The position numbers and the translations under genes are program-made. From NCBI RefSeq assembly GCF_002208115.1, contig NZ_CP020946.1:3100001-3164000 (forward strand): 64,000 nt of DNA, written 5' to 3'. A model generated the notes under the pieces. It did not search any database, was not told the origin of the DNA, and was given only the letters and a program-made list of their open reading frames with translations. Numbering within the stretch: position 1 is the stretch's first letter; the number at the start of each line of letters is the position of its first letter. Origin of the DNA: Bdellovibrio bacteriovorus. GTDB lineage: Bacteria > Bdellovibrionota > Bdellovibrionia > Bdellovibrionales > Bdellovibrionaceae. This document shows positions 1 through 53,222 of this stretch, one piece after another.

Positions 1-190
1 TGCTGTTCAAACTTTGGGCAAAAAACGCGAGGGCCTGCTTTTAGTCAGTGTTGGGGGCATTATGAGCCCAGAAGATGTCTTTGAAAGATTGCAAATGGGC
101 GCCGATCTTGTTCAAATTTATTCTGCACTTGTATTTCATGGACCTGGTTTCTTCCATGACGTTGCTAGAAGGTATAATGACGGACGATAG
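1..190 (+). CDS. pyrD: Dihydroorotate dehydrogenase (class 2), C-terminal fragment
   Basis: The window opens inside this gene. Reading from base 2, 62 codons run to the TAG at 188-190. The fragment carries the FMN-phosphate-binding end of the PyrD barrel: a VSVGGIMSPEDVFER stretch, then GADLVQIYSALVFHGPGF, matching the class 2 (membrane, quinone-linked) pattern GVGGI...GASLVQIYS...F.GP. The enzyme oxidises dihydroorotate to orotate in pyrimidine synthesis. Its last codons overlap the start of the mutT-like gene by 14 bp, so the two are probably translated from one message. Only the 3' end is present, so catalytic residues upstream cannot be checked. Confidence 0.85.
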   Translation, partial: AVQTLGKKREGLLLVSVGGIMSPEDVFERLQMGADLVQIYSALVFHGPGFFHDVARRYNDGR

Positions 191-3836: not shown

Positions 3837-5789
3837 TTATTCATATCGAAGCGCTTCAATTGGGTGCAGTTTTGACGCCTTGCTGGCTGGATAACTGCCG
3901 AAAACGATCCCAATCAGGGCAGAAAATCCAAAAGAAAGTATCACGGAGCCCGCAGAAACCACCGTCGACCACCCCAGAACCTTGGAAATCAACAGCGAAA
4001 ATCCAACCCCCAGGGCGATACCCAAAAGTCCACCGCACACACTGACAACGATGGATTCAGCCAGGAACTGCAAAAGAATATCCCGCCGGCGCGCGCCGAT
4101 GGCTTTGCGCAAACCGATTTCTTTGGTTCGTTCCGTCACGGACACCAGCATGATGTTCATGATCCCGATACCGCCCACCACCAAAGAAATTGCCGCAATC
4201 GACGCCAGCAGCATCGACAAGGTCTGACTGGTGGAATTCAGCGCCTGCTGAATATCGGCCATATTGAAAACATTAAATGCGTCACCTTGTGATGACACCG
4301 GCACCCGATGGCGTTTGTTCATCAGCTCTTGCAGTGAATCCTGCACATCCGGAATATCCGCGGCATCGCGAACTTCGATATCCACCGAATCCACATAATT
4401 TTTTCCGAATAGACGATACATCGCCGTCACCACCGGAACCAGGATTCGGTCATCCTGATCCTGCGGGCCCGCCGCGCCCTTTTCCGGCAGAACTCCGATC
4501 ACTCGAAAGTTCACTTTGTTGATTTTAATCATCTCGCCAATCGGGGATTTATCTCCGAAAAGTTCACGGGCCACCGTGGTGCCAATGACTGCCACAAGCA
4601 TGCGGCGCTGATTTTCTTCCTCGGAAAAGAAACGGCCAAAGATCGGCGTGCTTGCACGCATTTGTTCGTACGCGGGCGCCACCCCCATGACCTGCGTGTT
4701 CCAGTTTTTATTCAGGTAAGTGATCTGCCCTCGCCCCGACGAGGATGGCGATACGTCTTTAATCCCGCTGATTTGATTTTTAATAGTGTTAACGTCATCC
4801 AAAGAAATCCGAATGCGCACTCCGGATTCCTGCATCACCCCGCCCACCCGCACATTGCCTGCGCGCAAAACCAGAAGATTCGAACCCAAAGAGGACAACT
4901 GCTTTTCGATGCTTTGCCGAGCGCCCGTCCCCAGCGCCAGCATTCCCACAACCGCAGCGACACCAATCAAGATCCCCAGCATGGAAAGACCCGAGCGGAC
5001 TTTATTGGCCGCCAGGGTTTGGAATCCCTGATGAAGATGCTCAATCATTTCACGCACCGGCCATTTTGCCGGCTTTTCCCGTCGTTTTTCCTGCGCGATA
5101 GTGGGTGCTGCGGGCAAAGCCTGAAGGCGCTCATCAGATTGAATCACTCCGTCCCGCAGGCGGATCAAACGCTTAGCCTGCTGACCGATTTCTTCTTCGT
5201 GGGTGACGACGATGATCGTGATCCCCTGATCATTCAGCTTGTGCAGGATCTGCATGATTTCTTTTTCGCTTTTTGAATCCAGATTTCCCGTGGGTTCATC
5301 GGCAAAAATAATGCGGGGATTATTAATCAAAGACCTAGCAATGGCGATACGCTGTTGCTGTCCCCCGGACAGTTCATTGGATTTGTGATGGATTCTTTCA
5401 GCCAGACCGACCTTGTCCAAAAGCGTGTGAGCTTTGTCATAGCTAAACCCATCCTCGCTGTAAATCAGCGGCAGGGACACGTTTTGCCAGGCTTCCATGC
5501 GCGGAAGCAGATTGAACTGTTGAAAAATAAAACCGATTTCTTCCCGGCGAACAATGGCCAGCTCGTCTTCACTGAGATCCGCCACTTCACGGCCATTGAG
5601 GTTGTAACTGCCCTCGCTGGGAACATCCAATAACCCCAGAATGTGCATCAGGGTTGATTTGCCGGAACCTGAAGGCCCCATGATGGCCACGAAATCCCCG
5701 CGCTCAATCTTCAGACTGATGCCTTTAAGGACGTCCACTTTCGTGTCGCCCATCTGATAGGATTTGCGTATGCCCTTGATATCAATCAT
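3837..5789 (-). CDS. macB: MacB-type ABC transporter (ATPase fused to permease)
   Basis: The 650-aa protein has an N-terminal ABC ATPase (Walker [10 protein letters not shown] at residues 38-46, Q-loop in [11 protein letters not shown], signature LSGGQQQR, Walker [11 protein letters not shown]-loop VVTHE). A C-terminal MacB permease follows: one membrane helix near residue 275 ([17 protein letters not shown]), a large periplasmic domain, then three helices near the end, including [30 protein letters not shown]. This fused layout is MacB, which drives efflux of macrolides, peptides or lipoprotein-like substrates through a TolC exit duct. Its start overlaps the macA stop by 4 bp. It is the last gene of a tolC-macA-macB operon. 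Confidence 0.93.
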
Positions 5790-6748
5790 TGGCGACCCCG
5801 GCGCGGAGCTGACGGAGGACCAAATGGATTGGATCCTCCCGAGGATTTTTCTCCCAGCTTAAACTGCGTGACCAGAACTACGTCACCTTCACTTAAGCCT
5901 TCCACCACTTCGGTGTTGCGGCCATCGGTGATGCCCGTGCGCACTTCGCGCGGAGCGGGCTTGGAACCGGGCACCTTTACCAGAACTTCAGTGCGCCCCT
6001 GACTGACACGCAAGGCTTCACTTGGCACCAGCAGGACACCTTTTTTGGATGCGATCGTGAAGGTCACATTCGCCGTCATCCCGCTTCGCATGAAATCCGG
6101 AGTGTTATCAGGAATCACATCCACCAGATACGTGGTGACGTTATTGACCGTGGTCGCATCAAAGGCGATCTGATCCACCGTCGCTGGCAATGGGCTTTGC
6201 GGATAAGCATCCAATACGATGGTGGCTTTTTCTTTCAGTTTGATTTGGGCAATATCGGTTTCATCCACCTGGGCCTTCACAGTCAGGCGATCGGACATCA
6301 CAAAAATCGCGTCGGTGTTCGTGAAGGTCTGTCCCGGTTCAACATTCTTCAGAATCAGAGTACCTGCAATCGGCGCAATCACCGGGGTTGCCAGATAAAG
6401 TTCAGACCATTTTTTGTATTCTTCAGCCCCTTGTGCGCGGGCGGCGTCCAACATCGCCGCTCTTTCAGTGGAACTCATCCAGGCCAGAATCTGACCTTTG
6501 CGGATCTGCTGGCCTTCTTTCGCCAGAATCTGTTCAATGCGGCCCGCCACCGGGGCTTTGATTTCAAGACGGTTTTTCGGCTGCACGGTGCCCGTTGAAA
6601 GAATCGTCACGTCCAAATCACCTGCGATGACAGGGATTTCACGAAAGACCGGAGCATTTCCGTCTTCCTTTTTCCAAAGGTAAAAGCCCGCTGCGACAAC
6701 GACGACAAGGCACCCCAGGATCCAGCTTAGTTTCTTTGATGATTTCAT
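5786..6748 (-). CDS. macA: MacA-like periplasmic adaptor protein
   Basis: The 320-aa membrane-fusion protein has one N-terminal membrane anchor (LGCLVVVVAAGFYLW, residues about 11-25). It then has a split lipoyl domain (KAPVAGRIEQILAKEGQQI and VIAPIAGTLILKN), a beta-barrel domain, and a C-terminal membrane-proximal domain ending in a proline/glycine-rich tail. It links MacB to the outer-membrane channel. Between the lipoyl halves there are only about 30 residues of helix, much less than the long hairpin of E. coli MacA (371 aa). The contact with the TolC partner must therefore differ. It overlaps both neighbours by 4 bp. Confidence 0.88.
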   Translation of the reverse strand: MKSSKKLSWILGCLVVVVAAGFYLWKKEDGNAPVFREIPVIAGDLDVTILSTGTVQPKNRLEIKAPVAGRIEQILAKEGQQIRKGQILAWMSSTERAAMLDAARAQGAEEYKKWSELYLATPVIAPIAGTLILKNVEPGQTFTNTDAIFVMSDRLTVKAQVDETDIAQIKLKEKATIVLDAYPQSPLPATVDQIAFDATTVNNVTTYLVDVIPDNTPDFMRSGMTANVTFTIASKKGVLLVPSEALRVSQGRTEVLVKVPGSKPAPREVRTGITDGRNTEVVEGLSEGDVVLVTQFKLGEKSSGGSNPFGPPSAPRRGRQ

Positions 6749-50431: not shown

Positions 50432-50505
50432 TATAAATCCTTTCGTTAGTTGGTTGATTCCTGCCCTCGCTTTTAAAAAGGTCCCGAAGAAAAGCCAAGT
50501 TACTT

Positions 50506-50579
50506 TGACACAAAGTGTGTCAAACACTGACACGCCCCGGATTCATTACATGTGTCAAAAGCTGACACGGATTGTGTCA
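50506..50579. promoter_or_regulatory. Phased array of six TGACAC/GTGTCA half-sites
   Basis: TGACAC at 50506, GTGTCA at 50517, TGACAC at 50528, then GTGTCA at 50552, TGACAC at 50563 and GTGTCA at 50574 (first bases). Steps inside each triplet are exactly 11 bp, one helical turn, with orientation alternating. The gap between triplets is 24 bp. The whole 74 bp is symmetric about 50542/50543. It sits between divergent starts at 50431 and 50627. Confidence 0.88.
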
Positions 50580-50626
50580 ATAAGTCTGGCTTTTCCCTTG
50601 GTATCAATGCTAAGACCGTGCTCGCC

Positions 50627-51430
50627 ATGGAACTGACCCGACTTAAAAGCAAAAGAATCCAAGCCCGCAACTTCAAGCAGCTTCTGCAAGATGAGCTGGT
50701 TGCCCGTTGTCGGACCAATCCCAATTATTCGCTTCGATCTTTTGCGCGATCCTTGCAAGTGGAGCCTTCCGCCCTTTCCCAAATGATCAACGGCAAGCGC
50801 CCCATCACCGAAAAAATGAAAATGCGTCTGGGAATGGCTCTGGGACTTTCCACTGATCAACTTCGCCATTTGCCAACGACACCCGAGACGGCACCGGAAA
50901 ACACCCACGCCAAAGCCCGCTTTCAGCAATTGACTTTGGACACCTTCGCCGTCATTTCGGACTGGTACCACTATGCGATTCTGGAGCTGACCTATGTGGA
51001 GGATTTCAAATCTGACAGCACCTGGATCAGCCAGCGCCTGGGAATTACCAAGTCTGAGGTGAATATTGCGATTGAGCGGTTGTTGCGCCTGGGTCTTTTA
51101 AAGAAAAACAGCAAAGGAAAATGGATTGATGCCTCTGAAAACGGCGAATTGACTCACCTGAGTCCCGCTGAAACATCCGATGCCGCCAGAAAATATCAAA
51201 TCCAACTGCTGGAGCTCTCGCAAAAAGCCGTGCAGGAAGTTCCTTTGGCCCAACGCAATCACACCTCCGCGACGTTGTGTTTTGATCCCGAGGATCTGGC
51301 CCCGGCAATAGAGCGCATTGCCGAGTTTCGCCGTTCCTTTGCGCGGGAATTCCAGCCCCGCAAGGCCAAAGAAGTTTATCAACTGCAAGTCAGTTTTTTC
51401 CCAATGACCAAACAAAAGGACGTTCTATGA
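50627..51430 (+). CDS. TIGR02147-family transcriptional regulator (full-length form)
   Basis: The start is taken as the ATG at 50627, giving 267 aa. The GTG at 50552 would place the start inside the operator array. Residues about 10-75 carry a Cro-type helix-turn-helix (YSLRSFARSLQVEPSALSQMINGKRPIT). The middle ~110 aa form a second, winged-helix-like unit (WISQRLGITKSEVNIAIERLLRLGLLKK) typical of DUF4423. The C-terminal segment (AIERIAEFRRSFAREF...YQLQVSFFPM) matches the short paralogue at 37726. The family is characteristic of Bdellovibrio and Fibrobacter. It overlaps the next gene by 4 bp. Autoregulation through the array is inferred. Confidence 0.85.
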   Translation: MELTRLKSKRIQARNFKQLLQDELVARCRTNPNYSLRSFARSLQVEPSALSQMINGKRPITEKMKMRLGMALGLSTDQLRHLPTTPETAPENTHAKARFQQLTLDTFAVISDWYHYAILELTYVEDFKSDSTWISQRLGITKSEVNIAIERLLRLGLLKKNSKGKWIDASENGELTHLSPAETSDAARKYQIQLLELSQKAVQEVPLAQRNHTSATLCFDPEDLAPAIERIAEFRRSFAREFQPRKAKEVYQLQVSFFPMTKQKDVL

Positions 51431-51684
51431 AATCATTTTTCAGCGTTTGTTTTCTGTTTCTTATGGGCCTTTCCTCTGTCGCGTCCGCCCGTGGAGTGAA
51501 AGAGGGTGGCGGCGATACTGGTATCTTTGAAATGTGCGTGAACGAGCACCTTACAATGATACAATCTGAATTGATGCGCGATGATCTGATTTTAGAGTTA
51601 TCCTCGGATGAAAAGATCCTGTACGTCGTCACAGTTACTGGAGAAGTCCTAGGCCGTGTGGACATATCGGTATGTCATCGATAG
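51427..51684 (+). CDS. Small secreted protein coupled to the regulator
   Basis: The 85-aa product begins in the regulator's stop (ATGA) and has a signal peptide (MKSFFSVCFLFLMGLSSVASA). The mature ~64 aa start RGVKEGGGDTG and hold two cysteines, one in FEMCVNE and one in ISVCHR. Direct coupling to a DNA-binding regulator suggests a shared control circuit, for example an exported effector or signal. No family is recognised. Confidence 0.68.
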   Translation: MKSFFSVCFLFLMGLSSVASARGVKEGGGDTGIFEMCVNEHLTMIQSELMRDDLILELSSDEKILYVVTVTGEVLGRVDISVCHR

Positions 51685-51767: not shown

Positions 51768-53222
51768 ATGGATTCGTGTCGCTTTGTCCTGATTCTTGTT
51801 TTTCTTGTTGTTTGTCAGGGTCACTACGCTAAGGCCGGTGGCGGCATTAAGTTTGGCTTTAACGCCAGCAATGCGCCTCCGTTGCTTTTTCAATTTGAAA
51901 ATCAAAACAATCCCATCCCCACCGGGGGGCTGATTTACGAAGTTTCCGTCGCCATCGGTGAAGAGCTGGGCGGCGAATATTCCATCGCCCGCCTTCCGCG
52001 AAAGCGCATAGCCACCAATATCATTAACAACAAGATCGATCTGGTATGTCACAACAGTCTTAGCTGGCGGCATCCGTTCGCGGACGGGGCTTTATGGAGC
52101 AAGCCTCTTTTCACCCACACGAATGTACTGGTCGGACTGACGACGATTCCCTTTTCATCCGCTGATCAAATCAAGGGCCTTATCGGCACCGTGGAAAACT
52201 ACGTCTATGCAGATCTTGAGGAAAAATTCAAAACTTTGGAGCTGCTTCGCAATGACAGTCCGAATATTGAAGTCAGTGTGAAGAAACTGCTGACGGGTCG
52301 GGTCCCCTACATTCTTTTAAGCGACATTGAATACATCTACTACAAAAGCCAGTACCCGCGACTGCAGCGAAGCACTTTTGCCATGGACAAGACCGACATT
52401 CAGTGCTCGCTGTCCAAGAAGTCCACCCTGACCATGACCAGACTCAATCGGGCCATTGATCGCCTGCATGAAAAACAAGTGCTGGCTAAAATTATCAAAC
52501 GCTATTCAGATCCAGAGACCACTCCCAAACCGGTGAGCTATGGTCTGAACAGCAATGATTCTCCTCCCTTCATCCACTTCGACAAGACCTCGTCCAGCGA
52601 GGGCATCGTGCGCGGCGGAGTCTTTTTCGATATCGCCCTGGCCATCGGAAAAAAAATCCAGCGCCCGATCAATTTTGTCCTGCTGCCCCGTGGTCGCCTG
52701 GATGCGCGCCTGGCTTCCGGACAAATTGAGCTGGTCTGTTATGACACTGAAGCCTGGGCTGGCGAGTACGCCAAACAATATCACTGGAGCACCCCGATCT
52801 TCCGACAAAGTGACTATATCGTTGGGCACAAAGCTGACGCGGAAGTGGCCAAAATCCGCACGCTGGAAGACCTTAAAGGCAAGCGCATTGGTGCCGTCCT
52901 GAACTTTGTTTATCCCGCGCTGACACCCCTCTTTGAAGACAAAAGCCTGCAACGCGAGGATGCGGGGTCCGGAGCCGCTAACGTGGAAAAGCTCAGTGTG
53001 AAACGCGTGCCGCTGATTCTTTTGAACAGTCTTGAATACAGCTACTATAAAAGCAAAGATTCCAGGCTGCAAAAGGCCCCGTTGGAAATTGACCCCGTCG
53101 ATGTGAAGTGCGCCCTGTCCAAAAAATCCAGTTTGAAAATAGAGGAAATCAATTCTGCCATCCACGATCTCGAAAAATCCGGCCGGATGCAGAAGGTCTT
53201 TGCCCCTTCCTATCTGCTTTGA
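51768..53222 (+). CDS. Tandem solute-binding protein (two fused SBP_bac_3-like domains)
   Basis: The start at 51768 gives 484 aa with a signal peptide (MDSCRFVLILVFLVV, cleavage near AKA-GGG). Two homologous halves (about 25-255 and 262-484) share LPR.R...I..G.I.LVC in the first lobe, and RVP.ILL...EY.YYKS...RLQ then DP/KTD.(Q/K)C.LSKKS near the end of each. This is an internal duplication of a family 3 binding domain. No transporter subunits are adjacent. The tsx gene follows after 11 bp, so capture in the periplasm of a solute admitted by Tsx is a reasonable idea. Confidence 0.8.
   Translation: MDSCRFVLILVFLVVCQGHYAKAGGGIKFGFNASNAPPLLFQFENQNNPIPTGGLIYEVSVAIGEELGGEYSIARLPRKRIATNIINNKIDLVCHNSLSWRHPFADGALWSKPLFTHTNVLVGLTTIPFSSADQIKGLIGTVENYVYADLEEKFKTLELLRNDSPNIEVSVKKLLTGRVPYILLSDIEYIYYKSQYPRLQRSTFAMDKTDIQCSLSKKSTLTMTRLNRAIDRLHEKQVLAKIIKRYSDPETTPKPVSYGLNSNDSPPFIHFDKTSSSEGIVRGGVFFDIALAIGKKIQRPINFVLLPRGRLDARLASGQIELVCYDTEAWAGEYAKQYHWSTPIFRQSDYIVGHKADAEVAKIRTLEDLKGKRIGAVLNFVYPALTPLFEDKSLQREDAGSGAANVEKLSVKRVPLILLNSLEYSYYKSKDSRLQKAPLEIDPVDVKCALSKKSSLKIEEINSAIHDLEKSGRMQKVFAPSYLL

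Follow-up and report, generated by a model that had tools for sequence, protein, structure and literature searches.

Half-site triplets next to the -35 element as predicted operators of TIGR02147 regulators in Bdellovibrio bacteriovorus

The window analysed here, a stretch of 64,000 nucleotides from Bdellovibrio bacteriovorus, contains six alternating TGACAC/GTGTCA half-sites between two divergent genes, one for a TIGR02147 regulator and the other for a small secreted protein. The question raised by the locus is what reads these half-sites, and with what effect on the genes at either side. The half-sites of the original prediction were borne out. All six are free of mismatches, in forward orientation at 50506, 50528 and 50563 and in reverse orientation at 50517, 50552 and 50574, with steps of 11, 11, 24, 11 and 11 bp over the span 50506-50579. 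A genome-wide count showed the exact 17-bp palindrome TGACAC-N5-GTGTCA to be unique to this span in the complete 3.77-Mb genome. Three places match with one mismatch, and the genome scan gave 5 forward matches in total, compared to 9 for the reversed control pattern. The one-mismatch match at 75312, which lies just 3' of a gene for a Lon-like protease and lacks a convincing promoter, was taken as chance.

Read towards the genes, the array is two copies of a promoter-proximal unit, GTGTCA-N5-TGACAC-N5-GTGTCA (half-sites h1, h2 and h3), one for each divergent promoter (Table 1). Both units have the same orientation relative to their own gene and end 6-7 bp upstream of the -35 element. The predicted transcription start of the left promoter is at approximately 50463, and the regulator start codon lies at or just past its predicted +1. 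The expectation that the array would serve both genes is supported by this arrangement, with one unit at each promoter. The gene for the 85-aa secreted protein is presumably co-transcribed with the regulator; a 4-nt overlap between the regulator stop and a secreted-protein gene recurs at many loci of the family. Downstream of this operon, the product of 51768-53222 has two solute-binding stretches that resemble SBP_bac_3.

Table 1. Features of the two divergent promoters and their genes. Positions are those of the window; c is the centre of the h2-h3 dyad.
Feature	Position	Strand	Basis or remark
Small secreted protein, 116 aa	50081..50431	-	Signal peptide by eye
-10-like TAAAAG, left promoter	50470..50475	-	17 bp from -35; sequence and family frame
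-35-like TTGGCT, left promoter	50493..50498	-	Sequence; TTG at c+16..18 in the family frame
h3, left unit	50506..50511	-	h2-h3 spacer ACTTT is the family consensus; c = 50514; score 18.7
h2, left unit, TGACAC on the - strand	50517..50522	-	Exact match
h1, left unit, GTGTCA in the direction of the 50431 gene	50528..50533	-	Exact match
h1, right unit, GTGTCA	50552..50557	+	Exact match
h2, right unit, TGACAC	50563..50568	+	Exact match
h3, right unit, GTGTCA	50574..50579	+	c = 50571; score 16.2
-35-like CTGGCT, regulator promoter, weak	50586..50591	+	Sequence and conservation in orthologues
-10-like region GCTAAGAC, regulator promoter, weak	50609..50616	+	Sequence
TIGR02147/DUF4423 regulator, 267 aa	50627..51430	+	N-terminal XRE/HigA-like HTH, central MarR-like winged helix
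Recognition helix codons E46-P47-S48-A49-L50-S51-Q52...R58	50762..50800	+	Strongest co-variation with the half-site at 46, 47, 48 and 52
Small secreted protein, 85 aa, RGVKEGGGD motif	51427..51684	+	Start overlaps regulator stop by 4 nt

The reading which we hold to be probable is that each triplet is the promoter-proximal operator of the adjacent TIGR02147 regulator. The N-terminal HTH would read the half-site TGACAC, and with three half-sites directly upstream of the -35 element in fixed phase, the bound regulator would most likely contact RNA polymerase. It would in this way activate its own operon, ie the regulator and the small secreted protein, and in the window clade the divergent secreted-protein gene as well. 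Three half-sites with one rigid and one flexible spacing exceed what one dimer explains; physical binding, like the stoichiometry on the three half-sites, is inferred.

TIGR02147 takes its name from Fibrobacter. The window protein scores 106.8 bits against the TIGR02147 model (cut-off 50) and 141 against PF14394, or DUF4423 (cut-off 30). Of 144 genomes sampled from the phylum, 127 have regulators of this kind, many of them at least ten; in G012, G025 and G035, which are high-quality genomes, a few of the homologues carry single in-frame stops. The view that their operators are undescribed holds for the literature searched, which names neither TIGR02147 nor any operator for such regulators and mentions DUF4423 in one paper only, in passing: Bd3700 is given there as up 2.67 among the proteins tabulated as upregulated when the bacterium grows inside prey. 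In the predicted structure, which has a mean pLDDT of 87, the HTH resembles that of HigA and the winged helix that of MarR. Searched with Foldseek, the model matched known structures only in these HigA-like and MarR-like domains and nowhere over its full length, all matches having E >0.02. The protein falls below the cut-off for HigA antitoxins (TIGR02607, 32 compared to 47.7 bits), and its neighbours encode secreted proteins and no toxin. It also falls below that for MarR_2 (23.4 compared to 27 bits), the weak fold likeness being confined to the central domain.

The upstream regions of 93 non-redundant relatives (<60% identical), chosen by similarity to the window regulator, were examined for a common layout. 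This has the form half'-N4..8-half-ACTTT-half', at a fixed distance to the -35, the -10 and the ATG, and the half-site differs between regulators (for example GTGGAC-N7-GTCCAC-ACTTT-GTGGAC, GGTGCA-N8-TGCACC-ACTTT-GGTGCA and GATTCA-N6-TGAATC-ACTTT-GATTCA). Of the 93 regions, 29 paired at 11 or more of 12 positions, compared to 0.8 in dinucleotide shuffles, and 15 at all 12, compared to 0.2. The 29 sites, picked by pairing alone, share C at c-3, ACTTT and G at c+3; 27 have T at c+16, in the -35, and 21 have A at c+40, in the -10. In cross-validation the complementarity within regions was 3.33, compared to 1.91 (sd 0.13) with regions swapped. Acceptable sites were present in 55 of the 93 similarity-sampled relatives and in only 21/66 and 21/47 of two held-out sets. 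The -10 and the start codon played no part in site selection. An in-frame ATG was found at c+48..56 in 48 of the 55 sites, with the mode at 51-52 where +1 is expected, and a Shine-Dalgarno-like 4-mer in only 5. Because the start codons coincide with the predicted +1, it is suggested that the mRNAs of the family are leaderless.

As a first control, upstream regions of other genes gave 11 acceptances in 233. Since this set probably contained family promoters, the fitted model was instead run, unfiltered, over about 320 kb. At a score of at least 14.5 it returned almost exclusively promoters of the triplet family, and reached members not used in choosing the scanned sequence. Matches at L253 1781 (+), L256 10049 (-) and L266 11594 (+) led to further TIGR02147-type genes, likewise not used for choosing regions, two of which begin at c+52; regulators can be found with the site model. 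Judged by their upstream sequences, numerous relatives of the regulator in predatory bacteria appear to share this layout, each with a half-site of its own. The triplet rule covers a subfamily only, since 12 of the 13 TIGR02147 genes of the window genome, and nearly all of those in G006, have no recognisable triplet site. The window regulator is a member of the subfamily proposed here, having a triplet in the family frame at its own promoter. A clade with the helix SPAQ(L/I)SQ (L353, L028, L031, L032 and L121) has GTTTCA-N5-TGAAAC-N3-GTTTCA-like sites, in which the h2-h3 spacing is 3 compared to 5. Several of its members have a lipoprotein gene downstream, and it includes the sole site-like case of G006.

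The direction of control is the part of this reading most open to an alternative. We know of no description of the TIGR02147 family as activators, and the well-known autoregulators of the XRE/HigA type are repressors, which counts against activation. The regulator may bind the triplets and repress, as HigA/Xre antitoxin-like regulators do, in negative autoregulation that extends to the secreted genes; we regard this as possible, if unlikely. In its favour, the closest solved relatives are HigA antitoxins (2icp, E 7e-6), and the Xre-RES complex of P. putida represses its own promoter via palindromic repeats (PMC12204516). However, the whole operator is upstream of the -35 and keeps a fixed distance from it, a position that would leave the core promoter free, and the -35 elements are weak. 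The fixed phase expected of an activator contacting RNA polymerase next to the -35 was found in the pairing-chosen sites, in the T at c+16. Autoactivation is suggested, because the operator ends upstream of the -35 in rigid phase, and given binding, activation rather than repression is judged likely. The output would include the secreted protein overlapping the regulator stop and, as the sequence suggests for the window clade, a second secreted protein.

With the HigA/Xre autoregulators (PMC12204516; PDB 2icp, 6chv) the window regulator shares a homologous N-terminal HTH and palindromic half-sites in its own promoter, through which it may, by analogy, autoregulate. It differs from them in having no toxin gene, an extra winged-helix/DUF4423 domain, an operator upstream of the -35, and secreted-protein partners. 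The operator abuts a weak -35 in rigid phase, which resembles the placement at class-II-type activators.

A single cooperative array of 74 bp, binding several dimers for joint control of both genes as originally predicted, is considered quite improbable. In its favour, the two triplets mirror each other almost perfectly in the window and in G002. That symmetry is genuine, but with one triplet for each promoter it is a by-product of divergence: the two units look like one symmetric array in these two genomes because the genes are divergent and the units face each other. The outermost inverted repeat, GAAAAGCCA at 50489-50497 and TGGCTTTTC at 50587-50595, is the two -35 regions. Twenty-four Bdellovibrio genomes were compared, B. 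bacteriovorus strain kdesi, which carries the regulator, being one of the relatives of the window genome. Besides the window genome, six Bdellovibrio genomes have orthologues of the regulator, 69-94% identical, and the 116-aa secreted protein occurs in the same 7 of 24. Neither was found in the other 17, in which the best triplet matches had 3 or more mismatches, no better than the reversed control. Conservation of the sites upstream of orthologues was upheld, TGACAC/GTGTCA units being present in all seven regulator-bearing genomes, at the promoter of the regulator, of the small secreted-protein gene, or of both. Read towards the gene, the order is always GTGTCA-N5-TGACAC-N5-GTGTCA, in some cases with a degenerate half-site, and TGG or TTG follows 6-7 bp on. 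The genes are divergent in the window and G002; in G021, G001, G019 and G007 they are in tandem, and the units stand singly before single genes in the same orientation, which does not fit one 74-bp operator. Nor is the step between units constant, at 23 bp in G016 compared to 24 bp in the window. The exact 11-bp phase was dropped as a family-wide rule, because the h1-h2 spacing ranges from 4 to 8 bp; what is rigid is the h2-h3 spacing (5) and the distance to the -35.

A search for wide regulons gave no support for them. Within about 6 kb of 20 paralogues, cognate dyads were no commoner than swapped ones (1 compared to 1.6), so the regulators look dedicated and local. Exceptions are the window clade and L250, which has a second TGCTGC site before a secreted-protein gene. 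This second unit, GCAGCA-ATCAAA-TGCTGC at L250 5070-5100, is identical in h1, spacer and h2 to the regulator's own near 5976 and precedes the gene at 5258-5851; the regulator there may control the adjacent secreted protein, in a second lineage. With all sites local, linkage alone could keep them beside orthologues, and the triplets could be sites of another transcription factor that merely travel with the regulator gene. We find this very improbable, as in independent lineages the half-site bases shift together with residues in the recognition helix of the neighbouring regulator.

When mutual information was computed between 235 protein columns and the half-site bases, the top four were E46, P47, S48 and Q52 of the window protein (residues 34, 35, 36 and 40 of the aligned piece). 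These align with T27, Q28, Q29 and Q33 of the 434 repressor, the classical base-contacting positions, and Q47 paired with T, which is A on the opposite strand, resembles the Q28-A contact there. The arrangement differs from 434/lambda-type repressors in that the helix would read the half-site of the h2-h3 pair in the opposite direction, and in the presence of a third half-site. Residue 47 relates to base 5 by a rule fixed in writing ahead of the held-out tests: P, A or V gives A, S or D gives G, H gives C and Q gives T. In the two held-out sets, first and second, it was correct in 19/20 cases (mean of 15.5 under permutation, p=0.005) and in 18/21 (mean of 8.2, p=5e-5). Among 48 phylogenetically independent pairs, from a tree built without the helix columns, base 5 differed in 15 of the 16 with different residue-47 classes and was the same in 28 of the 32 with the same class (Fisher p=5e-8 overall). 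One of the 48 pairs sets PPGRLSEI with GGGAAC against PSGRLSEI with GGGAGC. A simple rule from residue 48 to base 4 was rejected, being right in 11/20 cases of the first held-out set where permutation gave a mean of 10.3; base 4 appears to depend jointly on residues 46, 48 and 52. A rule from residue 52 to base 3 gave 16/21 in the first held-out set, and in the second 10/21, which was not significant (p=0.11). Because the recognition-helix residues co-vary with the half-site bases, it is most likely that the regulator uses its N-terminal HTH to bind its own promoter, and the proposal that the array is its operator gains support from the same co-variation. The approach resembles that for the LacI family, whose recognition code was derived from local autoregulation (PMC2978694), in correlating residues of an HTH family with bases of own-gene sites and in the support from convergence. 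Here the protein is an XRE/HigA-like HTH with DUF4423, and the operator a half-site triplet in fixed phase to the -35 of apparently leaderless promoters.

Chance repeats, or RNA hairpins or terminators such as the palindromes could form, are hardly credible given the uniqueness of the exact pattern in the genome, a family-wide pairing far above shuffles, and a position upstream of the -35, outside the predicted transcript; the conservation of the sites and their co-variation with the protein likewise count against them.

Returning to the regulator as activator at its own triplet, we think it on balance somewhat favoured that a large TIGR02147 subfamily in the Bdellovibrionota consists of self-contained, mutually orthogonal autoactivators, each reading a half-site triplet in a leaderless promoter of its own by a simple residue-to-base code and driving a co-transcribed secreted-protein gene. 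Promoters of Bdellovibrio have been described as largely unmapped (PMC3627812). What results is a layout for the operator, a prediction of promoter and start site, and a rule for base recognition; with layout and rule given, the cognate operators of many uncharacterised regulators of predatory bacteria become predictable. The TIGR02147 regulators are linked here to functionally uncharacterised lipoproteins and small secreted proteins, and if the proposal is true, the specificity of each regulator would be readable from a few helix residues.
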